From the IMG/VR virus record IMGVR_UViG_3300005613_000184, positions 1 to 38,566 of that record: 38,566 nt of DNA. The stretch is one strand, 5' to 3'. A program made the position numbers and the translations under genes. Under the pieces are notes generated by a model. The model searched no databases. It was not told the DNA's origin and was given only the letters and a program-made list of their open reading frames with translations. Below, in pieces: positions 17,201 through 37,131 of this stretch (positions within the stretch are counted from its first letter, which is position 1; the number at the start of each line of letters is the position of its first letter). Source of the stretch: a virus.

Positions 17201-20200
17201 GTTTAGATTTGTTATTCAAAGAGATCCTTATTTTGTAGCTCAATTTGGTTCTAATAATTGCAAAATAAAATTAGAAAATTTTAGTTATAATTTTAAATCT
17301 AGTAATTTAAACCTAGCGTCAGAAAGCCTTTGGCCTTGGTTTAATCCTAACTTTATTGGTAATTCAGAGTTTAATTTTATTTCAGTTCCACAATTAGATC
17401 CTGTAAATGAACTTCCAAATGCAGGTACTTCAAGCTTTCATAAATTAATAGCTAATTGGTTTGGAAGAGCTGACACTACTCAATTTTCTGATTTTCCTTC
17501 TACAATCGTGTTTAATAACGAAAATACATTTTACACAAATATCGCCAACGCTAGTTCGTTTGTAGGTGTAAATACAGCTTATCTTGGCAGTGAAGCTTTA
17601 AACTTTTCATCACTAAATCCTAATTGGGATTACGAAACTATTCTTCATAATAATGAATATAATTTAAGTCAACGCGACTTAAATATAGTGATGTTAGAAG
17701 ATGTTGGCCCTTTTAACTTGGTGGCAGGTGATGGTATTTTTTCTCCAAATCTACTTGGATTTCCTGTAGGCACTGGCGGTATATTAGGAGGAAATAACTT
17801 TGAACTTGCTAGAACGCTTGTATTAGGCGGCGATCTTGAAAGTCATTTCTACATTCCAACACCAATAGATCAAAACAACATAAATAATATACCAATACAA
17901 ATACTAAACTTAGACGCGCCTGATACTCAAGTTGGCTTAACTAATCCTAACAACCTAGGAGCCCCATCAATAAAGTCATTTAGAACTTATAAAATAGGAG
18001 TTGTATATAGAGATAAATTTGGAAGAGAAACACCAGTTTTGCCAAGTAAAAATAATATAGTGTTAGACAATGTAGCTTCAGACAGTATAAATAAGCTAAG
18101 TCTAACCTGCAATCATAAAGCGCCTGACTTTGCTGACTCTTATAAGTTTTTTATAAAAGAAACTTCATCTGAATATTATAACTTAGTAATAGATAGGATA
18201 TACGATGGTGGCGAAAACACCGCGTGGATTTCTTTTAATTCTGTAGACAGAAACAAAATAACAGAAGACACTATACTTATATTTAAAAAACAACACGGCA
18301 GCAACTTTATGGCTACTTCTGATGTTTTAGTCAATGACGTTTTAGATGTTTCTAATGTTAACTTAGAATACCCTATTATAGCTATATCTAACGAAGCTCC
18401 TCCAAAAGTTTTAGATCAAGCTGGCGTTACTGCAGATTTTGAAAATTTATCTACAGAAGCAGAAATAGAAAAAGTTCAAGGTAAGTTTTTTGTTAAAGTA
18501 AGAATTGACGAGCCGTTTAAAGCTAATGTTGTAGGATCAGCAACTGGAATTGTTATTACTGCAAGCGAAAAGCCTGGAGTTTTTGAAACAAAACCAATAG
18601 AAAATAAAGATTTAGACATATATTACGAGGCTAGCCAAGCTTTTCCTATAGAGCTAACTAGCGAAAACGTAGATAGGTTTATTCAAGTCGGCGCAACTAT
18701 CACTCCTATATATCAAAGCTCAAATGGATTTGTTTTTGAAGGTAGTACTTCGCATAGTGTTTTAGATGCTGGTTTTGCTGGAAGTTTTTCAATAGCACAA
18801 GTTGTTGGATCTTTTACTAGCGGTAATAGTGTTAATAGTGATTTTTGCGAAATAGTTTTAGATGGTCCTGTTATTGTTGCACCACTAGTTACCGAAAATG
18901 GTCCTCAAGTTTATAACGCTCAAGATAAGTTTTTTTTAAAAATTAAAAATCCAAACAAAACTATTGTAACCTGCGAAATAGGCTTGTTGACAAATACTCT
19001 TTCTAACAAAGTGTATTTAAAAAGATTTACGCATCCAGTCGCGGGTTTTGACGATAAAACTACTATAGTTTTTCCTTGGTTTAATTGTTTTTCTTTTGCT
19101 AACGGTGTTGAATCTAATAGAATACGAGATAGATTTAATCAACCTTTTATATCTAACGGTGTTAAAGCTTCTACTGTGTTTGAAGATTACTCTGAAGAAA
19201 TAAACAAAAGCAAATTAATATTTTCAGGAATATATAACTCTAAGTCTAGCATTAACAAAACGAATCAATTTATAATTGGTGAAGGTATAACTAAAGACTT
19301 AAACCCAGACTACGGTCAAATACAGAGACTTTTAGCTAGAGATACAGATTTAATAACATTTTGCGAAGACAAAGTTCTTAGAATATTATCTAACAAAGAT
19401 GCTTTATTTAACGCTGATGGAAATACTAATGTTGTAGCATCGAAAAACGTACTAGGAACCGCTACTCCATTTGTTGGTGAATATGGTATATCTAATCATC
19501 CAGAGTCTTTAGCTAAGTATGGCTATAGAGTTTATTTTACCGATGTTAAAAGAGGCAAAGTGCTAAGATTATCTATGGACGGTATAACACCTATATCTGA
19601 CTATGGTATGTCAGACTTTTTCTTTGATACGTTTAATCAAGTAAATAAAGATACTAAAGTTATAGGTAGTTATGACAATGCTAGCGGAGAGTATAATCTA
19701 ACTGTTCCGGTTGTGTCTAATACAACTTCTAATAGTTATGGTTACGTTAATTCTAGTGATGACTATATAGCGCCAACTTTTTCAGATGACATTGGAGGCT
19801 ACACTATATCGTTCGACGAAAGTAATAATGGTTGGTCAAGTTTTAGAACTTATGTTAAAGAAGCTGGATTTAGTCTTAACGATAATTATTACACTTTTAA
19901 AAATGGTAGAATTTGGCAACATCAACAAAATCCTTTAAGAAATAATTACTACGGCCAGCAGTTTAACTGCTCTATTAGATTTATATTTAACGACGCGAGC
20001 AATATTGTCAAAAGCTTTAAAACAGTAAACTACGAAGGCACGCAAGCTAAAATATACGAATCTCTTACTAATAACGAGTATTACGATAACGCTGCTAAAG
20101 ATGGTTGGTATGTAGAAAGAATATCTACAGATATTCAAGACGGTCAAGTAATAAACTTTAGAAATAAAGAAAATAAGTGGCACAAATATATTACTGGAGC

Positions 20201-22166: not shown

Positions 22167-22871
22167 ATGAGTAAATATAATAAAGTTGTAAAAGGGCAAG
22201 TAGAAAGTCCAATGAAAGTGCTACCTTTGGTTTTAGGTGCTCTTGGTGTAGGAAGCGCGATATACGGTGGAATACAAGCTTCGCAAGGAGTAAGAGATGC
22301 TGAAAGAGCTATTACAGACGCCCAAGGGCCGCTAGCACAATCACAGCAAGCATATATGGATTTTGAATTTAAAAATCCTTTTGAAAGTATAACAAATCCG
22401 TATCTTACAAGTCAAAATGTTTACGAAGATATAACTATAGATCAAAGAGCTGCAGAAGCCGCTAGATCACAGCTAGATGCTCAAACGGCGCAACTTCTAC
22501 AAGCTCAAAGAGAAACTGGTCAATTTGATATATCTACTGTTCAAGCTATAGCAGATATTCAAAGACAAGGTAGACAAGCAATATCACAAGATATAGCTAG
22601 GCAAGAGCAGCAAGCACAAACGCTTAGACTAGGTGAATCTGCTAGAATACAACAGCAACAACAAGCTACAGATTTAGCTTTACAGCAATTAGCAGCTCAA
22701 GGAGCTCAAGCTCAGCAAGCGTTAGAGTTTGATAGATTAGGAACTACATACGGTATGGATTTAGAAAGAATGGCTGGAGCTCAGCAGCAGCTAGGTATGG
22801 CTAGGCAAGGTCAAGCTCAGTTTTTTGGCGACTTAGTTGGATCTTTAACGTCTCTTGCTGGAGTCGTATAA
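22167..22871 (+). CDS. Internal virion/ejection protein with hydrophobic N-terminus, 234 aa
   Basis: The start is basic, with a VESPMK motif at about 12-17. A glycine- and alanine-rich hydrophobic segment follows at 18-38 (VLPLVLGALGVGSAIYGG). Residues about 60-80 contain FKNPFESITNPYLTSQNVYE, and from 90 to 215 the protein is a Gln/Ala-rich amphipathic helix. The C-terminus is hydrophobic (FFGDLVGSLTSLAGVV). This arrangement is typical of small podovirus ejection proteins (T7 gp14 type) that enter the envelope and line a channel for DNA. It is followed by a second soluble protein and a giant one, as in gp14-gp15-gp16 order. Function is by analogy, since sequence similarity to T7 is not evident. 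Confidence 0.65.
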   Translation: MSKYNKVVKGQVESPMKVLPLVLGALGVGSAIYGGIQASQGVRDAERAITDAQGPLAQSQQAYMDFEFKNPFESITNPYLTSQNVYEDITIDQRAAEAARSQLDAQTAQLLQAQRETGQFDISTVQAIADIQRQGRQAISQDIARQEQQAQTLRLGESARIQQQQQATDLALQQLAAQGAQAQQALEFDRLGTTYGMDLERMAGAQQQLGMARQGQAQFFGDLVGSLTSLAGVV

Positions 22872-24178: not shown

Positions 24179-27100
24179 ATGTTTGAATACAAAGGCGTTA
24201 CATTTTCTCAAGAAGATGTTGAAAATAGAGCTAAAGAGAAAGGCTTATCTTTAGAAGATTATTTACTTCAAAATAAAGATATAAACCGTGTTGAAGTGGA
24301 AAAGCCAACGACTCCAAAGGCAATGAGTGCGGCTGCGGAGTCAAGAAATGCTGCACTCGATACGGGATCGCCATCGGTTCCTACTTTTTCGGAGTTACTA
24401 GATCAAGCAAAAGATGCTTCTAAAAAATACGACAACACTCGCCACGAGTGGATGTTGGATAAAAACAACAAAGGCGAAGTAGTTGATTATTCTTTCTTCA
24501 ACAAGTCTGAAGAAGACGCTGAGGTAGCGTTATCTCAAGCCTACCCTGGTTTTAAATTTGAGCAAGCTGGAAATTTATTTGACGGAGAAAAATACTTTAA
24601 TATGATTAAAGTAGTAGCCCCTGATGGTAAAAAGTCTGAAGCTATTGAGTTTAGAGTTTATGATGCTGCAAAGCCAGAAGACGCAGCTAGAAGACGTAAA
24701 GAATCTTTTGAGCAATTAACATTGTTTATAAACGAAAACTCCGGCGATAAAGAAAAACAAGATCAAGACGCTAAAACTCAACAGGACATAGATAAATACA
24801 TCGACTATAGTAGAACTGTAGAAAATGGTATAGATAAAGACGCTATTACAAAGCAATACTCTGGTGATATTTTTGCCCCTAAAACAACTGTTCAATATGT
24901 TCCTACTAGCAAAATAGGTAGTAGAGTTCAAAAGCTAGAAAAAGTAGAGCAACCTTATATTAAAGAGTTGCAGTTGGCCGCTAAAGAACTAGGTTCTAAC
25001 GCACCTAAGTTTGCTATAGAAGCGAAAGCTAGGGAAATTTTAATAAATAATACTATAGCATCTGAAAGAGACAGAATATCTGAAGAGTTATTTGAAGATA
25101 GTGAAGAGTATAGATTATTATTAGAAAAAGGTGGCAAAGAGTTTGCTCAAAAATACGGATCTAAAATAGAGCTGCAAACTAGCTTAATAAATGACTTCGA
25201 AAACGGTGATGATATTAAAAAGCTTAAAGAAATAGATGGTAAGCTTTCTAATACTAAATACCAATTTGAAATAAAAGAAGGTGAAGAGACTATTACTATT
25301 GAAGATGGTAGAGTTATTCCAGCTAACGTGTTAGACGAATATAATAAAGCTAGTGCAAGTCTTAACGCTAAAGTATCTCATATAAACTCTCTTCAAGATG
25401 AAATTAACTCTAACATAGATATAATATCTTCTACAGATCAGCAGCTAGATTTACTTAAAAGAAATTACAATGGTATTCAAAAGTTTTTTGTTACTACCGG
25501 TGTAGGAACTGCACAGCTGCTAGACGGCGCTTCTTATGGTCTAAAAGCTTTTACTGGAGCTAATAGCTTAGAAGACGATAAAAAGTTTATAGAAAGACAA
25601 AATAGATACCAAGAAATAAGACAAGAGTTTGAAAAAGACGTTCAGTTTGACGATGCTTTTAACTCTGTAGAAAACTTTTTTACATTCGCGGCTCAAGAAA
25701 CGGCTAATCAGCTGCCTATATTTGCCGCTTTAACAACGCCTGTTGGTTTTGGTATTATTGGCGCTAGTGGATTTGGTGAGCAATATTCTAAAATGACAAG
25801 CGAACAACTTGATCCGTTTGTTAGAGCCGAATACAGTGAGATGGATAAAAAATTATCTAGTATAGGCTACGCTGGAGCAGAAGTTGTTTTTGGAGCTTTA
25901 CCAACTGCTAGATTAGTTAGAGGCGCTACAAAGTCTTTAACTAAAACGGCAGCTAGAAACGAACTATACAAAAATCAATTTAAAGATTTTTATAAAACAA
26001 AAAAGCTAGAAGGTATTGTAGGTGCTGGCGGTGAAAGTTTAGGTGAAGGATTAACTATTGTAACTCAAAATATAATTAATGGTATTGATCTTTTTGAAAA
26101 CGTAGATCATGCTATGTTTTCTGGGGCTTTATTTGGCACTGGCTTTGCTAGCGTACCTTTAATTAAAGGCGCTATAGTTCAAAAGTTTTCAGACTTTGAT
26201 ACGTACCAGTCTGTAATGGATAAAAAGAAGCAACAAAAAGAGTTGCATGCTTTAAACAACAGAATAGAAGATCAACTTCAAAGAGGTATAGTTTCCATAG
26301 GTACTAGAGATGATATTGAAAGAAACGAAAATCTTATAAACGAGTTAGAAGAAGATATAATATCAGAAATAAACGAAGTAGAAACTAAAATAACAAAAAC
26401 ATATAACGGTGTCGCTAGAGAGTTTGTTGAAGCCGTAAGTTTGCAGCAAGATCTACGAGTTGAGTATGATAGAATAAAAAATAGCGACTTAGAAGCTAGT
26501 GCTAAAGAGCAGTCGTTAAAGTTAATAGAAGTACAGTTTAACTCTCTGCAAAGCGGAATAAATAAATTCAAAAAGTCTAAAACTTTTGACAACGCCTGGG
26601 CTTTATACAGCGGCAAGAGAAAAAATAAAGACGAGGTAAAAAGAATAAAAGATCAAGCAGAAGAAGAGTTAAAAGCTACGGGCAAGCAATATAGCGATAC
26701 TCAAATAGATGATAAAGCTAGACTTATATATAATACTGAACAGATAAAAAAAGATATATCTAAGTCTAAGTCTAAATATAACAAGCTTAACAAAAGTTTA
26801 AAAGACTTTGAAACAAAAGAGCAAGCTGTTGAGTATATAAATGAAGTATACGATAATAGAATAAAAGCAGAGCCAAATAGAGAAACTGAGCTAAACAACA
26901 ATAGAAATAGCGATATACAAGCTATACAAGAAGGATCTCATGGTTTTAACATTCAAACAGTAGATGGTAGAAAATCTGTAGTCGTAATTGATAGCATGGC
27001 TGCTGATGACAGATTAGAGACTAGAACTCACGAGTTAAAGCATCAAGTCTTTACTAATATATTAGGAAATAATCCAGAAGTTTACAATGATCTAGCAGAG

Positions 27101-30100
27101 CAAGTATTAGCTTGGACTAATAAGTATGCTAAAGATTCATTTGACAGAATAACTGCTTTTGCAGAAAGAGATGCTCAAGGTAACTTAATATCGTATGAAG
27201 TTATGGCTGTCTTTTTTGAAGAAGTAGCAGCTAACAAAATAAATCTAAACAAAGCGAATAGGTTTTCTGGCGTGCTAGGTTATTTGATAGGTAAAGGTGC
27301 TAATGATGTTGGCCTAGAAATTGATTTGGCTGGCGAAGAAGACGCTATAAAGTTTTTAACTGGCGTTGCGCAGAAAATAAAGCAAGGAACTTTAACAGTT
27401 GCTGATGTTTCTAAAATAAAGAAAAACGTATTAATATCAGAAGTAACTAACATAGTAAGAGGCGATAAAACAGCTTTGTCTAGAGCTGCTTCTGAAAAAG
27501 TTCAAGAAATATACGAACAGCAAGGAGACTCTGGTATGTTTGAAATATTTGAGCAATTTAAACCTATAACAACTCGTATTGCTAGAAGGTTTAGAGACGT
27601 GCCTGGCTACGACGAACAGCTTATTATAGATGAAATAGAAACAGGTGAAAGAGGCATTTTAGATCTTATCAGAGCTTATAAGCCTGATTCTGGCGTGCCT
27701 TTAGCTGCTTATATAAACAAGTTTCTTCCAGCTAGATCTATTGAAGCTGGTAATAGAATACTAAAAACAGAGTTTGAAGACGACGTAACAGAGGCTAAAG
27801 GTGTGGTAGCTGATGAAGCTCCGGCCGTAGAAGTTGAAGAAAGAAAAACAAAAGCAAAAGTAATAGCTGACGAACTAAATATAGCTGATAAGGTTGCTTT
27901 AGAAGTGTCAAAAGCTGGTTTAGATGTAACTAAACTAAAAAACTTTAAAAGCGTCCCTAACGCTGCTATAAATACAGTAGGCGAAATGCTAGGTGTATCT
28001 CCAACTAAGATAAAAACAAAAGCAAACTTAACAGCTGACGAAGTAGCTTCCGCGCAAAGATGGTTTAACAAAAATAAACAGCTAGTAATAGATGCTCTTC
28101 CACAGGGCTTTGATGTTGAAGGCGAAGCAACTGGAGTACCAAGAACTGTTCTAGCAGCTTTGTATACTCAAAGAGAAACTAGAGCTAAAACTAAAGCTGG
28201 CTTGAAAGGTCAAGTAAAAAGAACAAATATAAAAGACTCTGAGTTTTTAGAGTTAATAGATATTATTGATGGTAAGCCAACTCGTAACAGAAATACGTCG
28301 GCTAGAATTATAGCGCTTGCAGATTTACTTGGTAAAACAATTACTAATCAAGAGATAAGAAGAACAACTCCAGGTGTTGAAAGAATACGAAGCGGTATGT
28401 CTGAGACTATGTTTAGTCAATCTTTCAACGTTAGACCTGAGTTTAGAATAGACTTATCTGCTATAAAAAATGAAAGAAGAGCAGTAAACAAACTATTAAG
28501 TCTTCATAATCTTGATAGAACGTTTGAAGTTAAATCTACAAAAGATATTGAGCCTTTTATACAAAATGTAGTTTTACCTTTATTTAAGCTAGGTCTAAAA
28601 GAAATGTTTGTTGGGCCAGATGGAGGCACTGTGTTTACTAGTAGCGCTAAAAATTTAGGTCTTAGCGCTAGTAGTGAAACTCAAGGGCCTATATGGAGAG
28701 CTTTTGTAAATAGAGTTAAAGAAGTTGCAGAAACAGCTGAGTTTGGGCAAAATATACCAGGTGTTAATAATAGCGAAATATGGGAGCTTAGAAACAAATA
28801 CAACACATTGTTTGGTACACCAGCAAAAGCTAAAAAAGCTATTGAAGATGGTAGAGTTAAAGATTTTAACAATAAGGTTGGTAAAATACATAAAGAGCTT
28901 TGGGATAGAATATCAAAGTCAATAAAAAACGATAGAAATAATGCTGTTGGTTTAGCTACATATTTAACATTTACAGCTAACGACACTGGTCATTGGCATA
29001 AACTAGGAGCTCAATTTGCTGGTTACTCTAAAAAAATAACAGGCAAAAGGTATGAGTTTGAACATGCTATGCCAGCTACAGCGGCTTATAATTATTTGCT
29101 AGATGCAGCTATCACTGATGCAGACAATAAAACTAATAGTTTTGTAGCTTCTTATGATTTAATTGTAGAAAATTACAAACTAATAGCTCTTGATAAGGCT
29201 ATGGACGATAAGCTTAGAAACGCTAGAACAGCTAGCGGTCTTAGTTTACAAAAAGTAATGCCTGATAATTGGAGCCCTATATTAAACAATTGGTATGAAA
29301 GATACTTTAATAGTATTGTAGCGGTTCAAGATAGAGGTATAAATCCAGCTTCTATAGAAGGTTTAGACGGTAGAACTTTTGACCAAATATACAACGTAAA
29401 CGTAGAAGGCAACTCAATATTCTCAAAGACAGGTATTAAAAAGAACATGATGTTAAGCGAAGCTACATCAAACTCTAGAGCGGTGCTTAATTATACAGGA
29501 AAGTCAAGAGGCATGTCTACTTTTGATTTTGATGAAACGCTGATAATTGATGGCGAAAACTTTATAGTAGCTACTAAAGGAGATGATGTACAAAGAATAT
29601 CATCTGGAGACTGGCCATTACAAGGGCCTAAATTTGCTGCTGATGGCTATGAGTTTGACTTTACAGACTTTGTAAATGTTAGAGGCGGTGTTGATGGTCC
29701 ACTACTTCAGAAGATGCGTAATCAAATTAAAAAATACGGAGTAGACAACGTATTTGTTTTAACTGCTAGACCAGCTGAAGCAGCCACAGCGATACATGAG
29801 TGGCTTAAAACTAAAGGTATAAATATACCGTTTGAAAATATAACTGGTTTAGGCGACAGCAGAGGCGATGCTAAAGCTGAGTGGATGCTAGAAAAATACG
29901 CTGAAGGCTATAATGACATGTATTTTGTAGACGATGCCTTACCTAACGTTGAAGCTGTGCAGCACGTGTTTAATCAACTAGACGTTAAAGGTAAGTCAGT
30001 GCAAGCCAGAACTAACTTTAGTAAAAACTTGAGTAAAGGCTTTAACAAGATGCTTGAAAGAACTAAAAGTGTTGGAGCTGAAAAAGTATTTTCAAGAGTT

Positions 30101-32179
30101 GCCGCTCAAAAGCGTGGTAAAAACGTAGGTAAATACAGATTTTTTGTACCACCATCAGCTGATGATTTTGCTGGCTTATTGTATTATTTTTACGGCAAAG
30201 GTAAGCAAGGTAATGCTGATATGGAGTTTATGAAAAAAGCTTTGTTAGATCCATTTGCTAGAGCAGATCGTGAAATGAGCATGGCTCGCATGACTATATT
30301 AGATGATTACAAAGAGCTTAGAAAGCAGTTTCCAGAAGTTAAGAAAAAACTAGGTAAGTTAATAGACAAAGATAGTGGCTTTACGTTTGACAACGCTGTA
30401 AGAGTTTATTTATTTAATAAAGCTGGCCACGATATTCCTGGTTTATCTAAAAGAGATATTCAGTTCTTAGACAACGTAGTTAAAACAGATCAAGATCTTA
30501 GATCATTTGCAGATTTACTAGGTTTAGTTTCTAAAAGAAAAGAAGGTTACATTAAGCCAACTGATAACTGGAGTGTAGAAAACATCGCTTCAGATATGCA
30601 GAACATCGTGGATAAAATAGGTAGAAAACAGTTTTTAGCGGAGTTTATAGAAAATAAAGATATTATATTTTCGCCAGAAAACATGAACAAAATAGAAGCT
30701 ATCTACGGTAGTCAATTTAGAAAAGCATTAGAAGACGTGTTGTTTCGTATGGAAAATGGCACTAATAGATCTGCAGATAGAAGCTATGGTCAAGCATGGA
30801 CAAACTGGGTTAATGGATCTGTAGGCGCTATTATGTTCTTTAACAGTAGATCTGCCGTATTACAGACTTTATCTACAGTTAACTTTATAAACTTTCAAGA
30901 TAACAATATATTTGCTGCTGGTAAAGCTTTAGCTAACCAAAAACAGTATTGGTCAGATTTTAGTGCGTTATTTAACTCAGACTTTTTAAGAGCTAGAAGA
31001 GCTGGACTTCAAATAAATGTAAATGAAGCTGAGCTTGCTAACGCTGTAGCTGGAGCTCAAAATAAAGCTAAGGCCGCACTAAGATATTTACTTAAAGTAG
31101 GTTTCACACCTACACAAATCGCTGATAGTTTTGCTATTGCTTCTGGTGGTGCTACATTTTATAGAAATAGAATTAACACATACTTAAAGCAAGGCATAAC
31201 TCAAAAAACTGCTGAAGAAAAAGCGTTTTTAGATTTCCAAGAAATAGCTCAAGAAACTCAGCAGTCTTCAAGACCTGATAGAATATCTCAACAGCAAGCT
31301 AGCCCGTTAGGACGTCTTATATTAGCTTTTGCTAATACGCCTTTGCAGTACAACCGTTTAATCAAAAAAGCTGCTTTAGACTTAGCTAATAGACGTGGTG
31401 ATTGGAGGAGTAACGTGTCTAGAATATTATACTATGGAGCTATACAAAATGTTATATTCTCTGCTATGCAGTCTGCTATATTCGCACTAAGTTTTGATGA
31501 TGAAGAAGATGACGAGTTAGATAGAAGAACTTTACGAATAGTTAACGGCATGACTGATACAATACTAAGAGGATCTGGCGTTACTGGAGCTGCTATAGCT
31601 ACTATTAAAAACGTTTTAATGGAGTTTGCTGAGCAGTCTAAAAGAGAATCTAGAGCTGACTACGGACAAGTCGTAGTTGAAGCTTTACAAGTGTCACCTC
31701 CTATGGGGTCAAAAGCTAGAAAACTTTATAGCGCGTTAAACACTTATAAGTTTGACAGAGAAATAATGGCTAGCATGGACACTTTTGATTATAACAATCC
31801 TATTTGGGATGCTATAGGTAATGTAACTTCTGCTGCTACTAATTTACCGCTTGATAGAGGTTTTAGAAAAATAGATAATATACGCGAAGCTTTAAATCAA
31901 GATAACTCAGCGATGCAAAGAGCATTTTTGTTCTTAGGTTGGAGTTCTTGGGATTTACAAGTTGGAGAGCGTGTAGTTATGAATAAAGGTAAAAAAAATG
32001 AATACGTGAAGTATTTAGATACAAAGCGTCAGGCTCAACAAGAAGCTGAAGAGAAATTAAAAAAAGAAAAAAAAGAAACTAGAAAATCTAAGCAATGTAC
32101 AGCTAGATCGCGAAGTACTGGTAGAAGATGTCAGAATACTACAACAAACAAAAGCGGTAGATGCTATGTACATAACTAA
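24179..32179 (+). CDS. Giant polyvalent internal virion protein: zincin, HAD phosphatase, zinc finger, 2666 aa
   Basis: The domains in order are: helical N-terminus (1-480); Gly/Ala-rich hydrophobic region (about 480-670, e.g. FAALTTPVGFGIIGASGFG); coiled coils (670-910); a zinc metallopeptidase-like segment with HELKH at 951-955 and a downstream FFEEVAA whose Glu could be the third ligand; a helical segment recalling sigma-factor region 2 (about 1133-1202); a HAD hydrolase with all four motifs (DFDET 1783-1787, T1862, K1899, DD 1918-1919); a helical region with TQQSSRPDRISQQQASPLG and LILAFANTPLQYNRLIKKAA; and a C-terminal Cys-x10-Cys-x10-Cys-x2-His finger (C2640, C2651, C2662, H2665). It corresponds in position to T7 gp16 and is probably ejected into the host, delivering several enzymes at once. 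The enzyme substrates are unknown. Confidence 0.75.
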   Translation: MFEYKGVTFSQEDVENRAKEKGLSLEDYLLQNKDINRVEVEKPTTPKAMSAAAESRNAALDTGSPSVPTFSELLDQAKDASKKYDNTRHEWMLDKNNKGEVVDYSFFNKSEEDAEVALSQAYPGFKFEQAGNLFDGEKYFNMIKVVAPDGKKSEAIEFRVYDAAKPEDAARRRKESFEQLTLFINENSGDKEKQDQDAKTQQDIDKYIDYSRTVENGIDKDAITKQYSGDIFAPKTTVQYVPTSKIGSRVQKLEKVEQPYIKELQLAAKELGSNAPKFAIEAKAREILINNTIASERDRISEELFEDSEEYRLLLEKGGKEFAQKYGSKIELQTSLINDFENGDDIKKLKEIDGKLSNTKYQFEIKEGEETITIEDGRVIPANVLDEYNKASASLNAKVSHINSLQDEINSNIDIISSTDQQLDLLKRNYNGIQKFFVTTGVGTAQLLDGASYGLKAFTGANSLEDDKKFIERQNRYQEIRQEFEKDVQFDDAFNSVENFFTFAAQETANQLPIFAALTTPVGFGIIGASGFGEQYSKMTSEQLDPFVRAEYSEMDKKLSSIGYAGAEVVFGALPTARLVRGATKSLTKTAARNELYKNQFKDFYKTKKLEGIVGAGGESLGEGLTIVTQNIINGIDLFENVDHAMFSGALFGTGFASVPLIKGAIVQKFSDFDTYQSVMDKKKQQKELHALNNRIEDQLQRGIVSIGTRDDIERNENLINELEEDIISEINEVETKITKTYNGVAREFVEAVSLQQDLRVEYDRIKNSDLEASAKEQSLKLIEVQFNSLQSGINKFKKSKTFDNAWALYSGKRKNKDEVKRIKDQAEEELKATGKQYSDTQIDDKARLIYNTEQIKKDISKSKSKYNKLNKSLKDFETKEQAVEYINEVYDNRIKAEPNRETELNNNRNSDIQAIQEGSHGFNIQTVDGRKSVVVIDSMAADDRLETRTHELKHQVFTNILGNNPEVYNDLAEQVLAWTNKYAKDSFDRITAFAERDAQGNLISYEVMAVFFEEVAANKINLNKANRFSGVLGYLIGKGANDVGLEIDLAGEEDAIKFLTGVAQKIKQGTLTVADVSKIKKNVLISEVTNIVRGDKTALSRAASEKVQEIYEQQGDSGMFEIFEQFKPITTRIARRFRDVPGYDEQLIIDEIETGERGILDLIRAYKPDSGVPLAAYINKFLPARSIEAGNRILKTEFEDDVTEAKGVVADEAPAVEVEERKTKAKVIADELNIADKVALEVSKAGLDVTKLKNFKSVPNAAINTVGEMLGVSPTKIKTKANLTADEVASAQRWFNKNKQLVIDALPQGFDVEGEATGVPRTVLAALYTQRETRAKTKAGLKGQVKRTNIKDSEFLELIDIIDGKPTRNRNTSARIIALADLLGKTITNQEIRRTTPGVERIRSGMSETMFSQSFNVRPEFRIDLSAIKNERRAVNKLLSLHNLDRTFEVKSTKDIEPFIQNVVLPLFKLGLKEMFVGPDGGTVFTSSAKNLGLSASSETQGPIWRAFVNRVKEVAETAEFGQNIPGVNNSEIWELRNKYNTLFGTPAKAKKAIEDGRVKDFNNKVGKIHKELWDRISKSIKNDRNNAVGLATYLTFTANDTGHWHKLGAQFAGYSKKITGKRYEFEHAMPATAAYNYLLDAAITDADNKTNSFVASYDLIVENYKLIALDKAMDDKLRNARTASGLSLQKVMPDNWSPILNNWYERYFNSIVAVQDRGINPASIEGLDGRTFDQIYNVNVEGNSIFSKTGIKKNMMLSEATSNSRAVLNYTGKSRGMSTFDFDETLIIDGENFIVATKGDDVQRISSGDWPLQGPKFAADGYEFDFTDFVNVRGGVDGPLLQKMRNQIKKYGVDNVFVLTARPAEAATAIHEWLKTKGINIPFENITGLGDSRGDAKAEWMLEKYAEGYNDMYFVDDALPNVEAVQHVFNQLDVKGKSVQARTNFSKNLSKGFNKMLERTKSVGAEKVFSRVAAQKRGKNVGKYRFFVPPSADDFAGLLYYFYGKGKQGNADMEFMKKALLDPFARADREMSMARMTILDDYKELRKQFPEVKKKLGKLIDKDSGFTFDNAVRVYLFNKAGHDIPGLSKRDIQFLDNVVKTDQDLRSFADLLGLVSKRKEGYIKPTDNWSVENIASDMQNIVDKIGRKQFLAEFIENKDIIFSPENMNKIEAIYGSQFRKALEDVLFRMENGTNRSADRSYGQAWTNWVNGSVGAIMFFNSRSAVLQTLSTVNFINFQDNNIFAAGKALANQKQYWSDFSALFNSDFLRARRAGLQINVNEAELANAVAGAQNKAKAALRYLLKVGFTPTQIADSFAIASGGATFYRNRINTYLKQGITQKTAEEKAFLDFQEIAQETQQSSRPDRISQQQASPLGRLILAFANTPLQYNRLIKKAALDLANRRGDWRSNVSRILYYGAIQNVIFSAMQSAIFALSFDDEEDDELDRRTLRIVNGMTDTILRGSGVTGAAIATIKNVLMEFAEQSKRESRADYGQVVVEALQVSPPMGSKARKLYSALNTYKFDREIMASMDTFDYNNPIWDAIGNVTSAATNLPLDRGFRKIDNIREALNQDNSAMQRAFLFLGWSSWDLQVGERVVMNKGKKNEYVKYLDTKRQAQQEAEEKLKKEKKETRKSKQCTARSRSTGRRCQNTTTNKSGRCYVHN

Positions 32180-32196
32180 CATGTAATAATAAAGTA

Positions 32197-32433
32197 ATGG
32201 AACCGGTGGATAAAGAAATAGCACTAATGCAGCAACGTATGGATCAAATGGATAAAAAGCTTGATAAAATGGACGAGAAGTTAGACATGCTTACTAAGCA
32301 GCTACTTGATCCTGATAAAGGCATAGCTGCTAGAGTTAATCAAAACACAACTGCTAGAAAAACTATGACTAAAGCTATATGGGTGTTATATGCCGCTGTA
32401 GCCGCCGCGTTAGCTAAAATATTTATAGGGTAA
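32197..32433 (+). CDS. Coiled coil plus C-terminal membrane helix, holin/haemolysin XhlA-like, 78 aa
   Basis: Residues 5-38 are a strict heptad coiled coil of the MDKKLDKMDEKLDML kind. A short linker with RVNQNTTARKTM follows, and residues 57-77 form one membrane helix (IWVLYAAVAAALAKIFIG). This is the architecture of XhlA-type proteins that assist holins. The next gene starts on the last base of its stop codon, and two further membrane/coiled-coil proteins follow, then a putative peptidoglycan-acting enzyme. A lysis accessory role is therefore reasonable but not proven. Confidence 0.6.
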   Translation: MEPVDKEIALMQQRMDQMDKKLDKMDEKLDMLTKQLLDPDKGIAARVNQNTTARKTMTKAIWVLYAAVAAALAKIFIG

Positions 32434-32645
32434 TGGAAGAAGCTTTTAAACTAATAGAAAATTATGGACTATCTGTAGTTTTACTTATGGGTAGCTTATA
32501 TGCTTTATATAAATTTTTCTTTTTTAGTATTAAAGAAGTTAAAGTAGGATTTGAAAAACGCCACGAGTCTTTACGTGAGCAAATGAACGAAGTAAAAGAA
32601 AAGCTAAACATAATACTAGAGTTTATAAAGAAAAATGATAGGTAA
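32433..32645 (+). CDS. Membrane helix plus coiled coil, lysis-associated candidate, 70 aa
   Basis: One hydrophobic helix lies at about residues 11-33 (LSVVLLMGSLYALYKFFFFS), followed by a charged helical tail (FEKRHESLREQMNEVKEKLN) likely to form a coiled coil. Its orientation is the mirror image of the previous protein, which has the coil first. The start overlaps the previous stop by one base, and the stop overlaps the next gene by 11 bases, so the three are translationally linked. Similar small proteins in phages are annotated as holin or YvrJ-like, without experimental proof. Confidence 0.55.
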   Translation: MEEAFKLIENYGLSVVLLMGSLYALYKFFFFSIKEVKVGFEKRHESLREQMNEVKEKLNIILEFIKKNDR

Positions 32646-32853
32646 AAACCTAGAAGTAAACGTTGGTAATATAATTTGGATAGTAGGTGTAATCTTTACT
32701 ATGGGCGTAGCTTATAGTCAAATAGGTCAGCTAGAAGAAGACATTAACGTACTAGAGCAGCGCTTAGAAAAGAAAATAAAAATCATCAATGAAAATGATG
32801 ATAAAATAAATGAATTAGAAAAAGAACTAGCAGCTATGAAAGGCTGCGATTAA
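32635..32853 (+). CDS. Membrane helix plus coiled coil, spanin-like candidate, 72 aa
   Basis: A short polar N-terminus is followed by a membrane helix at about 12-28 (IIWIVGVIFTMGVAYSQIG). A long coiled coil then fills the rest (LEEDINVLEQRLEKKIKIIN, then INELEKELAAMKGCD) and ends near a single cysteine. An inner-membrane helix with a periplasmic coiled coil is what i-spanins look like. No lipobox partner gene (o-spanin) is visible within this frame or next to it, so the spanin idea is tentative. Confidence 0.5.
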   Translation: MIGKNLEVNVGNIIWIVGVIFTMGVAYSQIGQLEEDINVLEQRLEKKIKIINENDDKINELEKELAAMKGCD

Positions 32854-32879
32854 CATTAACAATAAATAACTAAATAAAA

Positions 32880-33290
32880 ATGGCAACAGTAACTGCAGCA
32901 TTAACATTATCGAGCTCTGATTTATTATCAGATGCCTTGAGCACAGCCGTTAGCGTAGGCATCACAGCCGATATTACTAATGGTATGCAAAGAAAAAAAG
33001 TAACATCAACAGCTAAAGGTACAGCTTCTGGTCAGGTAACTCTTATTGGAGCTACCACTGATCAGTTTACTACAACTCCAGCTTATTTGTATGTTAAAAA
33101 CACAGACACAACTAGAACTAACTATGTATATGTTTATCAAGACAGCGCGGCTGATGATGAAACTGTACTTAAATTAGCTGGTGGTGACTGGGCTTTCTTA
33201 CCAGTACCTGATGATGTGACTGACTTAGTAGCTTTTTCAACAGCTGGAACAGAGGTTGTTGAGTTCATGGCATTTGGATCTAGCTCGTAA
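32880..33290 (+). CDS. Small beta-rich virion-like protein, 136 aa
   Basis: The protein is rich in Thr, Ala, Ser, Val and Asp, and reads as alternating strands (MATVTAALTLSSSDLLSDAL at the start, ATTDQFTTTPAYLYVKNTDT and YVYVYQDSAADDETVLKLAG in the middle, ending VVEFMAFGSSS). It has the codon style of a well-expressed gene. Its pattern 'YLYVKNTD...NYVYVYQDS' is similar in spacing to 'YLRIKNYS...ELLIGSD' in the protein at 33750, so it may be a distant relative of the two tandem paralogues downstream. It could be a capsid decoration or fibre subunit. Confidence 0.55.
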   Translation: MATVTAALTLSSSDLLSDALSTAVSVGITADITNGMQRKKVTSTAKGTASGQVTLIGATTDQFTTTPAYLYVKNTDTTRTNYVYVYQDSAADDETVLKLAGGDWAFLPVPDDVTDLVAFSTAGTEVVEFMAFGSSS

Positions 33291-33757
33291 TGAAACTAGA
33301 AGTCTTGCGCTTTAGCAGCGGAAAAGACTCAACATCAGGCGCTTTGTTCTCTGTAGTTGAAGGTGTTAAAACATTTTTATGTTATACGCTTGAAGATGAA
33401 TACAGAGACAATAAGGTTTATAGTGAGACTAGGATTCCTGCTGGTATTTATGAGATACGGTTTAGGACCGTTGGTGGCTTTCACGCTAAGTACTCTAAAA
33501 GGTTTCAAGATATACACAAAGGAATGCTTCACATCATTGACGTTCCTGGTTTTGACTATATCCTTGTACACTGCGGAAACACAGATGAGCATACCGCTGG
33601 TTGTCTCTTGGTGGGGGACACCCAAAATAATAACATGGTCGAAGAAGACGGGTTCATTGGTCGCTCTACGGCCGCTTATAAAAGGATTTATCCTAAAATT
33701 GCTAAAGCTTTGGAGCGAGGTGAAGAAGTAACAATTGAATATATAGATTATGCCTAA
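33290..33757 (+). CDS. DUF5675 family protein, putative lysis-related enzyme, 155 aa
   Basis: The sequence shows the family pattern well: FLCYTLEDEYRDNKVYSETR followed by IPAGIYEIRFRT, then HIIDVPGFDYILVHCGNTDE and TAGCLLVGD. The His in VHCGN and the Cys in TAGCLL are the conserved pair, arranged like the catalytic His/Cys of L,D-transpeptidase-type folds, and the family is often found in phage lysis regions. It lies directly after the membrane/coiled-coil gene group, one structural gene later. Peptidoglycan cleavage or remodelling is therefore a good guess, but enzymatic activity of this family is not established to my knowledge. The stop overlaps the next start by 8 bases. Confidence 0.75.
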   Translation: MKLEVLRFSSGKDSTSGALFSVVEGVKTFLCYTLEDEYRDNKVYSETRIPAGIYEIRFRTVGGFHAKYSKRFQDIHKGMLHIIDVPGFDYILVHCGNTDEHTAGCLLVGDTQNNNMVEEDGFIGRSTAAYKRIYPKIAKALERGEEVTIEYIDYA

Positions 33758-34220
33758 TTTAACTACACGTATTACTGAAGCTTGGACTAGTGGTATAACT
33801 AGTGAAGCTCACGCTTTTGACAAGACTGTAACTATTGCAAACGTTGTGAGATTAGCTAAATTTGAATACAATTGCACTACTAGCTCTCATAGAACTTTGT
33901 TTACTATAGACAATAACGTTAGCTCTGGTGCTAGTAACGCTGGTAAAATAGCTAAAGATGATTTTAAATATCTTAGGATAAAAAATTACAGCGCAAGTAA
34001 TTCTTGTGAGTTGTTAATTGGATCTGACCCAGCTTCACCTATTAACTCGTTTACAAAAAAACTTGCTCCGTTAGAAGTTTTTGAAATAAGTAATTTAGCC
34101 ATGGAAGCTAACGACGCTGGTAAACTAAACAATGGTGATACTGATTTTTTAGCTGAAACTTTTGCAGTTAAAGGAATTGGTGGTAGTGTTAATATTGAAA
34201 TGATAGTAGGATATGCCTGA
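33750..34220 (+). CDS. Small virion-like protein, first of two tandem paralogues, 156 aa
   Basis: The opening (MPNLTTRITEAWTSGITSEA, HAFDKTVTIANVVRL) lines up with the next gene (MPDLTIQTRETFTSGISGEA, LAFDKTQTITGVNRI). Both share DFKYLRI-NY/F in the middle and an I/V-E-x-I/V-V-x-Y/Q-A end. The rest is beta-rich and Ser/Asn-rich. The pair follow one another with 8-base overlaps and probably arose by duplication. They are candidates for capsid decoration or fibre proteins. No catalytic motif is visible. Confidence 0.6.
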   Translation: MPNLTTRITEAWTSGITSEAHAFDKTVTIANVVRLAKFEYNCTTSSHRTLFTIDNNVSSGASNAGKIAKDDFKYLRIKNYSASNSCELLIGSDPASPINSFTKKLAPLEVFEISNLAMEANDAGKLNNGDTDFLAETFAVKGIGGSVNIEMIVGYA

Positions 34221-34662
34221 TTTAACTATACAAACAAGAGAAACTTTTACTAGCGGTATAAGTGGTGAAGCCTTAGCTTTTGATAAAACTCAAACTATAA
34301 CAGGCGTTAACAGAATACAAAAAATGTTATTTCAGCCACCTACAACTGGTCAAACCGAAATAATACGATTTGCGGCTTTAGAAGATGGCGCTGGGACATT
34401 TAAAGTTGCTGATTTTAAATATTTAAGAATAACAAACTTTGACAGTACAAATGCTATAGAGATTTACTTTAGCGATAGTTCTACAAATCATTATTTCGCT
34501 ATACAGTTAAACGCTGGGTGTTCATATATTATGACTTCTTTAGGCTATGATGTTAGAGACAATGGTTTAGCTAGCGGCGTTTCAGCAGCTGAGTTAGATT
34601 TAATAGAAATAAATTCTTTAGTAGCGGCTTGCGATGTTGAAGTAATAGTAGCGCAAGCATAA
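34213..34662 (+). CDS. Small virion-like protein, second of two tandem paralogues, 149 aa
   Basis: It is homologous to the preceding gene over most of its length by the shared N-terminal pattern and the DFKYLRITNF segment. It differs in the middle, with FAIQLNAGCSYIMTSLGYDV (about 96-115), and ends in CDVEVIVAQA. The start lies inside the last codons of the preceding gene, and its own stop shares one base with the next start. The two may form alternating subunits of one structure. The function is not known. Confidence 0.6.
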   Translation: MPDLTIQTRETFTSGISGEALAFDKTQTITGVNRIQKMLFQPPTTGQTEIIRFAALEDGAGTFKVADFKYLRITNFDSTNAIEIYFSDSSTNHYFAIQLNAGCSYIMTSLGYDVRDNGLASGVSAAELDLIEINSLVAACDVEVIVAQA

Positions 34663-34958
34663 TGGCACAGAAGAAACTAAATAAAAAAACAATGGCTTGC
34701 AACAAGCCAAGAAGAACTCCTAGCCACCCTACTAAGTCTCATGTAGTAAAAGCTTGTGAAGGTGGTAAAGAAAAAATAATTAGATTTGGTCAGCAGGGCA
34801 AGGCTATTGGAACTTTAAAAGGTACTGCTGGTAAACCTAAAAAAGGTGAATCAGCTCGAATGAAAGCCAAGCGTAAAAGCTTTAAAGCAAGACATGCTAA
34901 AAATATAGCTAAAGGAAAAATGAGTGCTGCTTGGTGGGCAGATAAAGTAAAATGGTAA
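34662..34958 (+). CDS. Basic small phage protein, first of the basic cluster, 98 aa
   Basis: The protein is very rich in Lys, Ala and Gly. The N-terminal half has MACNKPRRTPSHPTKSHVVK and IIRFGQQG, and the C-terminal half has ESARMKAKRKSFKARHAKNI and AKGKMSAAWWADKVKW. I recognise the KARHAKNI...KMSAA-WADKVKW ending as recurrent in phage virion-region proteins of unknown function. An RFGQQG strand followed by basic helices would suit nucleic-acid binding. It opens a run of seven short genes at 34662-37106 on one transcript. Confidence 0.6.
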   Translation: MAQKKLNKKTMACNKPRRTPSHPTKSHVVKACEGGKEKIIRFGQQGKAIGTLKGTAGKPKKGESARMKAKRKSFKARHAKNIAKGKMSAAWWADKVKW

Positions 34959-34961
34959 ATT

Positions 34962-35165
34962 ATGGCATACGTACAAAAAAATAATCCAATACCTAAAACT
35001 GGCTGCGGTAGAAGGAGACTATCAAAAATGAGTTCTCCTATGAAAGGCAAAATTAGTGAGCCTTGCAAAAGAGCAGCTAAGCGTAAGTTTAAAGTATGGC
35101 CATCAGCTTATGCTTCTGGCTGGGGTGTAAGATGTACTCGTAATCCTAGAAAATTTTTAAAATAA
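34962..35165 (+). CDS. Basic small protein with KVWPSAYASG motif, 67 aa
   Basis: The protein is basic, with four cysteines (Cys in PKTGCGRRR, in SEPCKRAAK and in GVRCTR). It carries FKVWPSAYASGWGVRCTR (about 44-61). That Trp-Pro-Ser-Ala-Tyr-Ala-Ser motif is shared by short proteins of phages and giant viruses that are annotated only as domains of unknown function. The cysteines might bind zinc. It also has SSPMKGK at about 25-31. It starts 4 bases after the previous stop. Functional role not known; DNA binding in the virion is a possibility. Confidence 0.62.
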   Translation: MAYVQKNNPIPKTGCGRRRLSKMSSPMKGKISEPCKRAAKRKFKVWPSAYASGWGVRCTRNPRKFLK

Positions 35166-35536
35166 TGGCTTTTAAAATGAAATACAAAGACTTGCGAGAA
35201 GTTGTTGGACAGCTTAAAAACGCTTCTAACATACATGGAAAGCAAGCAAAAATTGTACAAAAACATATTGATAAGATGGAGAGTAGCTCTCCTAACAAAA
35301 AGCGCATGGGTGATTTTAAACACTCAGACGCTCCTGATGCTAAAGGCAAGTTTAGAGAGTTATCTGCGTCTGATTTAGCTACTTGGATGATTAAGTCTCG
35401 TAAAGGTAATTTATCTAAAATTATAAGTAGCTTAAATCAGCAAGTTGTATTTAGAAGAAATACAGATCCAAAGTACGCTGCCAAAATGCGTAGAACTATG
35501 GACATCGTAAGAAAAAGATTAGGTAAAAAGAAATGA
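35165..35536 (+). CDS. Basic helical small protein with SPNKKR motif, 123 aa
   Basis: A helical protein: MKYKDLREVVGQLKNAS near the start, then a linker SSSPNKKRMGDF at about 41-52, and a second helical domain with FRELSASDLATWMIKSRKGN, LSKIISSLNQQVVFRR and RTMDIVRKRLGKKK. The linker motif SPNKKR recurs in the next gene. The start shares a base with the preceding stop, and its stop overlaps the next start by four bases (ATGA). It is probably a nucleic-acid-binding or virion-packaged protein; I know no family for it. Confidence 0.58.
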   Translation: MAFKMKYKDLREVVGQLKNASNIHGKQAKIVQKHIDKMESSSPNKKRMGDFKHSDAPDAKGKFRELSASDLATWMIKSRKGNLSKIISSLNQQVVFRRNTDPKYAAKMRRTMDIVRKRLGKKK

Positions 35537-35991
35537 GTAAAGCTTACCGCGGAGTATTAAAAGCTAGAATATCAAAGCTGTACGGCGGTGATGTCACTAT
35601 AGAAAAGTGCAAAAAGCTAAAAGCTAGGCCTAATGCTACACCTCGCGATAAACAGTTATGTAACTGGTTTATAAACATGCAAACCAACAGACCATCGCCT
35701 AATAAAAAGCGTAAAGATCCAAAAGTAGGCACGGGTAAAAAGCCAAAAGGATCAGGCAGAAGACTATACACCGATGAGAACCCTAAAGATACAGTTAGTA
35801 TAAAGTTTGCTACAGTAGCTGACGCTAGAAGAACAATAGCTAAAGTTAAAAGAATAAATAAGCCTTACGCTCGCAAAATACAAATACTAACAGTCTTAGA
35901 GCAAAGAGCTGAGGTTATGGGTAAGATGGAACAGGCTAGACTTGCTAGAGCTGCTAAAAAACAATTAAAAGCACAAAGAAAAGATGTTTAA
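35533..35991 (+). CDS. Basic phage protein with GTGKKPKGSGRRLYTDENP core, 152 aa
   Basis: A helical N-terminal domain (YRGVLKARISKLYGGDVTIE, then DKQLCNWFIN) is followed by the linker RPSPNKKRKDPKV at about 52-64. The core has GTGKKPKGSGRRLYTDENP, then DTVSIKFATVADARRTI, and finally KPYARKIQILTVLEQRA with a basic helix. The core is strongly patterned and recurs in phage and giant-virus proteins annotated as a domain of unknown function (DUF5824 type, as I remember it). The run of Arg and Lys before TDENP would suit phosphate or nucleic-acid binding. The start overlaps the previous stop (ATGA), and its end overlaps the phosphatase gene by 8 bases. Confidence 0.62.
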   Translation: MSKAYRGVLKARISKLYGGDVTIEKCKKLKARPNATPRDKQLCNWFINMQTNRPSPNKKRKDPKVGTGKKPKGSGRRLYTDENPKDTVSIKFATVADARRTIAKVKRINKPYARKIQILTVLEQRAEVMGKMEQARLARAAKKQLKAQRKDV

Positions 35992-36526
35992 AGATTTTGA
36001 CATATCTTCTTTTAAAGACATGAAACCACCTAGTGATAACTCTTTTGATACATCTCAAGAGATTAAAGAGCTAAAAAAAATACCAAGCAATAAAAAGTTT
36101 GTTAAGTATAACGACGATATTGAGAAAGTTTTTAAAGATAAAGCAAAGAAGCTCAATATTAAAGACTACGACAACAAGTTAGTTAATAAACTACTTAAAG
36201 AGTCTGTTCCAGTTATATTAAAATTAAAAAAACACTTTAATAGGCCTAGACCTAGTGTAATTGCTAAAAAGATGAACATAGATTTAAAACCTGTATATCT
36301 AGGTTCTGCCCAAACACCATCTTACCCATCAGGGCATGCAACACAAGCTTTTTTAATAGCAGAAGTACTTAGCGATAAATATCCTAAGCATGCTAAAGCT
36401 TTTAACAAAACAGCTGAAAATATATCTAAAAGTAGATTAATAGCTAAAGTTCATCATAGATCAGATTCTAAGATAGGCGAAAAGCTAGGTAAAAAAATGT
36501 ATAACTTTATAAAAAACAAAATTTAA
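35984..36526 (+). CDS. PAP2-superfamily phosphatase, soluble, 180 aa
   Basis: All three catalytic motifs of the PAP2/vanadium haloperoxidase superfamily are present in order: K-x6-RP (K82 to R89-P90), PSGH (P115-H118), and SR-x5-H-x3-D (S150, R151, H157, D161). His118, His157 and Asp161 would be the catalytic core, and the Lys and Arg residues bind phosphate. Unlike lipid phosphatases there is no membrane helix, and unlike class A acid phosphatases no signal peptide is seen. The N-terminal 70 residues are charged and helical. It sits inside a cluster of very basic small proteins. Substrate could be a phospholipid, a phosphate ester or a nucleotide; nothing visible decides this. Confidence 0.82.
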   Translation: MFKDFDISSFKDMKPPSDNSFDTSQEIKELKKIPSNKKFVKYNDDIEKVFKDKAKKLNIKDYDNKLVNKLLKESVPVILKLKKHFNRPRPSVIAKKMNIDLKPVYLGSAQTPSYPSGHATQAFLIAEVLSDKYPKHAKAFNKTAENISKSRLIAKVHHRSDSKIGEKLGKKMYNFIKNKI

Positions 36527-36527
36527 A

Positions 36528-36827
36528 ATGAAAAAAGGACCAATGAAAATGAGCCACCCTAAAAAGATGGCTAAAAAATCAGCTATGAAATTAACTGGTG
36601 ATATGAAGAAAAAATCAGCTATGAAAATAACTGCTAAGCAAGAGAAAAATCTTCCTGCTAACTTAGTTAAAGCTATTAAAGAAAAAGAAGCTTCTGCTAT
36701 GAAGATGAAAAAAGCAGCTATGAAAATGAAGAAAGACTCAGCTATGATGCTTAAAAAATCTGCTATGGAGATGAAAAAAGCTGCTTCTGCTATGAAAATG
36801 TATAAAATGAAAATGAAGAAGAAGTAA
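36528..36827 (+). CDS. Lys/Met/Ala low-complexity protein with SAMKMKK repeats, 99 aa
   Basis: The protein is nearly all Lys, Met and Ala with a few Ser and Glu. Repeat units read KKSAMKL, KKSAMKI, ASAMKMKKAAMKMKKDSAM, MLKKSAMEM and AASAMKMYKMKMKKK, roughly heptad-like. There is no aromatic core, so it is likely disordered or a lone amphipathic helix. The start lies one base after the phosphatase stop, and its stop is directly before the next gene, so the frame is under selection. Resemblance in composition to histone H1 tails and to chromatin-condensing lysine-rich proteins suggests a DNA-compacting or membrane-active role. There is no known family I can name. Confidence 0.65.
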   Translation: MKKGPMKMSHPKKMAKKSAMKLTGDMKKKSAMKITAKQEKNLPANLVKAIKEKEASAMKMKKAAMKMKKDSAMMLKKSAMEMKKAASAMKMYKMKMKKK

Positions 36828-37106
36828 ATGGCTTACGCTCAGTCTAAAAATCCATTTAAAAAAGTAAAAGGCGGAGGTACTAGAAAAGTGTGCTTACCTA
36901 AAGCTAAGGTCATGAGCATGACTAAAGAAGAACGCAAAAAAGTTGTTCGTGCTAAACTAGCTGCAGCTAAAAAAGGTAAGTATAAAAGATCTAGTAAGTC
37001 TTTTGTTAAAGGAGCTAGGAAAAAAGGAGCTACGCTTCGAGACTGGTTCCAAAAGGAAAACTGGGTACAAGTAAATAATCCAAGCAAAAAGTGCGGAGAA
37101 AAATAA
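36828..37106 (+). CDS. Basic small protein with LRDWFQKENWVQV ending (DUF5872-like), 92 aa
   Basis: The N-terminus is AYAQSKNPFKKVKGGGT, then RKVCLPKAKVMSMTKEERKK, then a basic stretch KLAAAKKGKYKRSSKSFVKG, and at the end TLRDWFQKENWVQVNNPSKK followed by CGEK. The last part resembles the 'KWFKE-WVDI-RP-...CGR' signature of DUF5872-type proteins found in phages and giant viruses. Two cysteines (CLPK and KKCGE) may form a metal or disulphide pair. It closes the plus-strand operon, just before the bidirectional terminator. Confidence 0.6.
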   Translation: MAYAQSKNPFKKVKGGGTRKVCLPKAKVMSMTKEERKKVVRAKLAAAKKGKYKRSSKSFVKGARKKGATLRDWFQKENWVQVNNPSKKCGEK

Positions 37107-37109
37107 AAA

Positions 37110-37131
37110 AAAGGGGACGTTAGTCCCCTTT
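37110..37131. terminator. Bidirectional terminator between convergent operons
   Basis: A 9-bp perfect stem (37110-37118 with 37123-37131) with loop GTTA is flanked by A-runs on the left and a T-rich run on the right. It is therefore followed by U-rich RNA in both directions: strongly so on the minus strand (eight T's then ATTTTT) and weakly on the plus strand (tattattt). It lies 4 bases after the last plus-strand stop and 6 bases before the end of the minus-strand histone-like gene, so it ends both operons. Confidence 0.88.

Follow-up and report, generated by a model that had tools for sequence, protein, structure and literature searches.

The window analyzed here (IMG/VR virus record, linear, 38,566 bp) raises the question of what use a phage would have for a small protein made largely of lysine, methionine, and alanine. 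The gene for this protein, which we call KM, is the sixth in a cassette of seven (34662-37106) near the end of the record (Table 1). Matches to the window's portal protein were found in 87 phages in GenBank, almost all of which infect Flavobacteriia, including Flavobacterium elemoviruses and phages of Cellulophaga, Tenacibaculum, and Maribacter, with about 42-52% identity among the matches listed. From these portal matches, a marine Bacteroidota bacterium is the most likely host.

The run of plus-strand genes begins with terminase (3910) and portal (6122), continues with capsid, tail, and putative ejection proteins, and leads up to the cassette; several of these functions were assigned from position and by eye. 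A terminator-like hairpin directly past the cassette closes this late operon, and beyond it lie convergent genes that include a ribonucleotide reductase recognized by eye. Two very large proteins are encoded in the run. One, a structural protein of 2517 aa (14202-21755), carries, toward its C-terminal end, repeats of GCTDPxAxNYNPxAxxDDGSC, which is a motif that occurs in Bacteroidota surface proteins. The other, of 2666 aa (24179-32179), matches nothing in Pfam or PHROGs; part of it looks like a phosphatase (HAD) by eye, and it is probably an injected multi-domain protein.

Table 1. Coordinates of the cassette, the parts of the KM gene, and the hairpin that follows.
Feature	Position	Strand	Length and net charge	Remarks
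Cassette gene 1	34662..34958	+	98 aa, +25	phrog_7595 (7e-36)
Cassette gene 2	34962..35165	+	67 aa, +18	Module CKRAAKRKFKVWPSAYASGWGVRCTR; sub-threshold DUF5872 match; N-terminal MAYVQKNNPIPK tag; SPMK
Cassette gene 3	35165..35536	+	123 aa, +21	MAFKMK tag; KASKTHAKQAK-type module; sub-threshold DUF5771 match
Cassette gene 4	35533..35991	+	152 aa, +30	Without named family
Cassette gene 5, PAP2-type phosphatase	35984..36526	+	180 aa, +20	Directly upstream of KM; Pfam PF01569, E 4e-9
Cassette gene 6, KM protein (Lys-Met-Ala repeat)	36528..36827	+	99 aa, +27	Based on composition, relatives, and dN/dS
KM N-terminal part, aa 1-33	36528..36626	+		GPMK/HPKK motifs; two SAMK[LI] units
KM non-repeat insert, aa 34-54	36627..36689	+		ITAKQEKNLPANLVKAIKEKE; lineage-variable module of KQ..LP..L...I type
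KM heptad-like repeats, aa 55-99	36690..36824	+		ASAMKMKK AAMKMKKD SAMMLKK SAMEMKK AASAMKMYKMKMKKK
Cassette gene 7, GGGTRKVCLP (KVCLP) protein	36828..37106	+	92 aa, +24	At least 155 relatives in IMG/VR
Intrinsic-terminator-like hairpin, bidirectional	37110..37131			Closes late operon, directly past cassette

Composition and repeat architecture of the KM protein

The KM open reading frame runs from an ATG to a TAA and encodes a protein with a pI of about 10.5, containing 33 K (33%), 19 M (19%), 15 A (15%), a single His, and no Arg, Cys, or Trp. Measured against the window's own residue frequencies, the probability of at least 33 K is 4e-13 and that of at least 19 M is 2e-13, and random DNA of equal base composition averaged 14.6 K and 1.9 M, along with 8.6 stops. 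The initial annotation had stated that the gene abuts its neighbors within a base, and this is borne out by an upstream stop ending at 36526 and a start codon for the next gene at 36828.

Seven SAMKM-like pentapeptides start at residues 18, 30, 56, 63, 71, 78, and 87, in keeping with the earlier description of a protein that is repeat almost throughout, but residues 34-54 are not repeat and that description has to be narrowed accordingly. In the first half of the protein the pentapeptides are accompanied by [AGS]P-x-K motifs, and relatives carry MKKAPAKMKKAPMKMAKKSPAKK in the N-terminal part, a sequence resembling the tails of linker histone H1. The insert is conserved in the nearest relatives, while elsewhere other short segments occupy its place, among them ITAKQK..LPANLV..I, KPLVGKQKNLPEELKKKIL, FNAKLKAASKAGKLSGKFKAAV, and KKVPTFAVDGKG. 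Codons differ synonymously from one SAMKM-like unit to the next and the repeat copies are about 60-86% alike as DNA, which rules out recent DNA slippage as the origin of the repeat.

Repeats of 7 residues dominated by Lys, Met, and Ala, with 77% helix formers (A, M, L, E, K, Q) in the protein, would also suit a cationic amphipathic peptide acting on membranes, for example as a lysis or host-membrane factor, and two small proteins encoded a few genes upstream (at 32433 and 32635) have an apparent membrane segment by eye. However, the helical moment of the repeat region (0.30, versus 0.21 +/- 0.075 in shuffles) is indistinguishable from that of shuffled sequences, 12% of which are as high. Mean hydrophobicity is negative, the N-terminal half contains proline, and the cassette neighbors are basic proteins in which we saw no membrane segments by eye. 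We therefore consider a membrane-active KM protein very unlikely.

Relatives, selection, and distribution

Used as a query in IMG/VR, the KM protein retrieved 7 relatives. A short ungapped alignment block matched only 2 loci, and a DNA pattern was used instead. Relatives were drawn from 80 loci fetched via the downstream neighbor gene and from stretches with the DNA pattern for AMKMKKxxM, which biases the collection toward that motif; the set fetched by the neighbor gene is free of this bias and has the same features. These sources yielded 64 different ORFs rich in Lys and Met, and by eye some 60 of them resemble members of the KM family. All relatives lie on metagenomic IMG/VR contigs. Many of these contigs are fragmentary, and the genes of the loci are mechanically called ORFs.

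Members of the family have one of two types of N-terminus, MKK[AGD]P-x-K..., as in the window, or MAFKMK[NG]..., some of the latter belonging to proteins of 200-360 aa. Across the family, K makes up 32% of residues and R 1%, and the [ASGDTE]P-x-K motif occurs 124 times versus a mean of 32 in shuffles. The median dN/dS is about 0.14, with all values below 0.5 (106 non-independent pairs at 75% identity or more). The order PAP2-KM-KVCLP is conserved in relatives, in which the KM gene lies either directly upstream of the KVCLP gene or a few genes downstream. The KM gene is thus real, conserved, and under purifying selection. An accidental reading frame, already discounted in the initial annotation, is ruled out by dN/dS, the existence of relatives, and the synonymous codon differences, and synteny agrees.

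Several Met positions are nearly invariant and only two swap M and L freely, in an alignment block picked for conservation. Such a pattern would be expected if the methionines served as an oxidant sink or a soft-metal (Cu+) binder protecting packaged DNA. Against this stand the choice of the block, the existence of related phages without KM, the lack of Cys, and the single His, and Lys beside Met is not typical of a Cu(I) site. We regard a Met-based function of this kind as extremely improbable.

Among records matched by the portal protein, the KM gene is present in 22 of 28 at a portal identity of at least 68% and in 1 of 18 below it (Fisher p about 2e-6, uncorrected for phylogeny). This count excludes weak profile matches above E 1e-6, and 2 of the 22 positive records (L040 and L044) escaped the profile but were recognized by composition. 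Absence or interruption in relatives had been named beforehand as an argument against the gene; the nearest relatives have it intact and syntenic, although 6 of the 28 fairly close records are without it. The exception below 68% is L006, which has a portal of 66% identity, yet a KM protein that is 87% identical across the aligned residues, suggesting that the KM gene may be exchanged between lineages.

No KM-family match was found in 50,697 GenBank phage records, and 84,980 prokaryote genomes gave 6 pattern matches, none of them a KM-family ORF. The prokaryote genomes rule out a prophage or host-derived gene, and both searches support the earlier remark that this type of Met-Lys sequence is rare, at least outside this virus group. 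Pfam had no match for KM or any of 26 relatives and PHROGs none of significance (best phrog_26962, E 0.063), so that no known family was identified for it. We found no isolate with the gene, and a literature search on Lys-rich marine phage proteins, DUF5872, and KM-like virion proteins returned nothing on the family. Its members come only from IMG/VR contigs, the typed ones mostly of the window's own group.

The basic cassette and its N-terminal tags

All seven cassette products are strongly basic, while the other window proteins listed have net charges of +2 or less, the terminase alone excepted (+15). Relatives of the phrog_7595 protein encoded by gene 1 occur in 49 records, including Roseobacter, Synechococcus, SAR116, and other marine phages. 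The PAP2-type phosphatase (gene 5) has the motifs K(x6)RP, PSGH, and SR(x5)H(x3)D, read from its sequence; its active-site signature is complete, it has no evident membrane segment, and it is kept in relatives. In five related loci (L004, L005, L008, L020, and L035), phage GroEL and GroES-like genes lie shortly downstream of the basic cassette.

Individual cassette genes are sporadic among related phages. In isolated, more distant relatives (elemovirus, Maribacter phage Panino, and Manatee Spring podovirus), the stretches read have no cassette, which shows that it is not essential for such particles. Sporadic genes would suit an accessory role in host interaction, and a polycation is unspecific enough that KM could coat the host nucleoid or RNA and shut down host functions. 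Host-takeover genes are usually early, though, and the KM gene stands at the very end of the late run, after the structural genes, so that we think action on the host distinctly unlikely.

A parallel to the cassette is found in pelagiphage HTVC027P, which infects SAR11, a host of another phylum. Here a run of small basic genes includes four cassette-related modules close to one another, namely KAAAKRKFKVYPSAYAN (6e-7), KASKTHAKQAKIVKKHI (8e-5), a KVCLP-like protein (4e-5), and a DUF6321-type protein (4e-21, against the relative in L002), with E-values from a small pairwise comparison. Since related modules recur side by side in this phage, the arrangement argues for a joint function of the cassette modules. 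The pelagiphage run (L218, HTVC027P 27728-33997) sits shortly upstream of GroES. The KVCLP protein and its pelagiphage counterpart show an apparent circular permutation, clearest between L007:5133-5498 and L218:2622-2885, where BLAST aligns segments 53-81 and 96-116 of the L007 protein to 46-74 and 6-26 of the pelagiphage protein.

At least 30 phage proteins, most of them basic and without other relationship to each other, carry short N-terminal tags of the forms MAFKMK, M..Q..NP[FIL]K, and [SN]P[FLMIYA]K (34662-37106 in the window, and L002-L172). Among unrelated cassette proteins, the common elements are MAFKMK, with 62 distinct ORFs starting MAFKM, and M..Q..NP[FIL], with 82 ORFs. The MAFKMK codons show limited synonymous variation (Ala is GCA in 42, GCG in 11, and GCT in 7), which fits selection on the protein as well as a leader serving recombination or translation. 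The [SN]P[FLMIYA]K motif occurs at 2.09 per 1000 residues in positions 1-20 versus about 0.1-0.4 past residue 40, whereas permuted control motifs are flat along proteins. With one member per family the enrichment is five-fold (0.65 per 1000 in the first 40 residues versus 0.13). Tagged genes have a mean charge of +0.19 per residue, and some are neutral, including orthologs of the putative ejection protein at 22167. Among the orthologs of that protein (22167-22871), an N-terminal Pro-Lys element is seen in 6 of 21 phages (L198, L200, L205, L208, and L212 among them) as SPMK, SPFK, SPLK, SPAK, or SPYK, and as RPFK in L198; the gene adjoining the L198 ortholog starts MTKNKKSPMK.

The ejection-protein orthologs tie the Pro-Lys element to likely virion proteins, which speaks for the action on DNA proposed below. 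As a rival idea, KM might be a glue or sorting partner in virion assembly, binding acidic virion proteins and using its N-terminal Pro-Lys element as a signal for prohead entry. A strongly acidic protein in the scaffold position (8549-9727; net -38) and a capsid protein of -24 would provide partners, and the N-terminal enrichment, with tagged members in 38 of 607 families, near-neutral putative ejection proteins included, is in agreement. The tag is nevertheless carried by a minority of the ejection-protein orthologs, and the KM repeat region would need a separate explanation. We judge this assembly role unlikely.

Proposed action on DNA

The closest likeness to the KM protein is in the C-terminal tails of linker histone H1, which are likewise Lys-dominated with almost no Arg, contain Ala and Pro, are of low complexity, and are marked by KKAPAK/KKSPAKK-type motifs. 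A Lys/Ala/Pro tail with S/T/A-P-x-K motifs is present in KM, as a resemblance and not homology, and the K-to-R balance of the family is that of H1 tails and unlike that of protamines. Judged by Pfam, the winged-helix globular domain of H1 is absent from KM and from 26 relatives, KM consisting of the repeat and a 21-residue insert. KM further differs from H1 tails in its 16-19% Met, in being phage-encoded, and in the lack of detectable homology. In bacteria, chlamydial Hc1/Hc2 and other Lys/Ala-repeat proteins are small polycations that compact DNA; KM differs from Hc1/Hc2 in being Met-rich with Pro-Lys motifs, and no Pfam family of Hc1/Hc2-like or HU/IHF type matched it. Internal DNA-associated phage proteins such as T4 IPI-III are small, basic, and late, and KM, as a protein of this sort, could likewise travel inside the capsid. 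KM has no homology to them and is without a known processing site, and a virion location for it would be a prediction.

Among marine phages, small Lys-rich modules (phrog_7595, DUF6321-type, and KFKVWPSAYA-type) are neighbors of KM in one cassette and occur in Roseobacter, SAR116, Synechococcus, and SAR11 phages as well. These have Cys or Trp and a defined sequence, in contrast to KM, a repeat without either. Lysine methylation of phage proteins has been described in a study of Cellulophaga phages that does not cover the KM family (PMC13288928), and is a possible parallel for Lys-rich tails.

The initial annotation offered three functions for KM, namely a DNA condenser, an amphipathic membrane-active peptide, and a phase-separating scaffold. 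The first is the best supported, because of the charge, the H1-tail-like [AS]P-x-K motifs, and the co-oriented basic cassette; the second fared poorly for the reasons given above. We give about an even chance to KM being a disordered, H1-tail-like polycation that binds DNA in the late phase of infection, possibly within the capsid. Judging from operon position and the terminator, the protein would be made late, and it may be intrinsically disordered or only loosely helical. It would bind phage DNA electrostatically and help to neutralize or compact it as a linker-histone tail does, a mode of action favored by its H1-tail-like composition and motifs and by the all-basic setting in the late operon. 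KM may act jointly with the other basic cassette products, and the likeliest role of the seven proteins is coating or compacting DNA, or else helping to fill the virus particle. The site of action would be DNA in the infected cell at the time of packaging or, for an internal protein, the interior of the particle. Such a polycation would also bind RNA, acidic proteins, and membranes, and charge neutralization alone leaves the conserved methionines unexplained. Our guess is that the methionines let chains make flexible hydrophobic contacts with one another or with other proteins of the virion.

A more far-reaching idea, which we think rather unlikely, is that the phage devotes the whole cassette to a kind of "chromatin". 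The set would comprise mix-and-match small basic proteins, many with a shared N-terminal Pro-Lys or MAFKMK tag that sorts them into the capsid, where they would lie alongside the genome until both are delivered together, with KM as a filler polycation in Bacteroidota phages.

KM represents a previously undescribed family of Met/Lys repeat proteins that selection maintains in uncultured podoviruses of Bacteroidota, and modules of its cassette recur in unrelated, abundant marine phages of SAR11, SAR116, Roseobacter, and Synechococcus. If the cassette proteins compact DNA or are internal virion proteins, a role would emerge for many small "hypothetical" genes of ocean phages, and the common N-terminal tag would offer a direct, testable handle on how phage proteins are sorted into particles.
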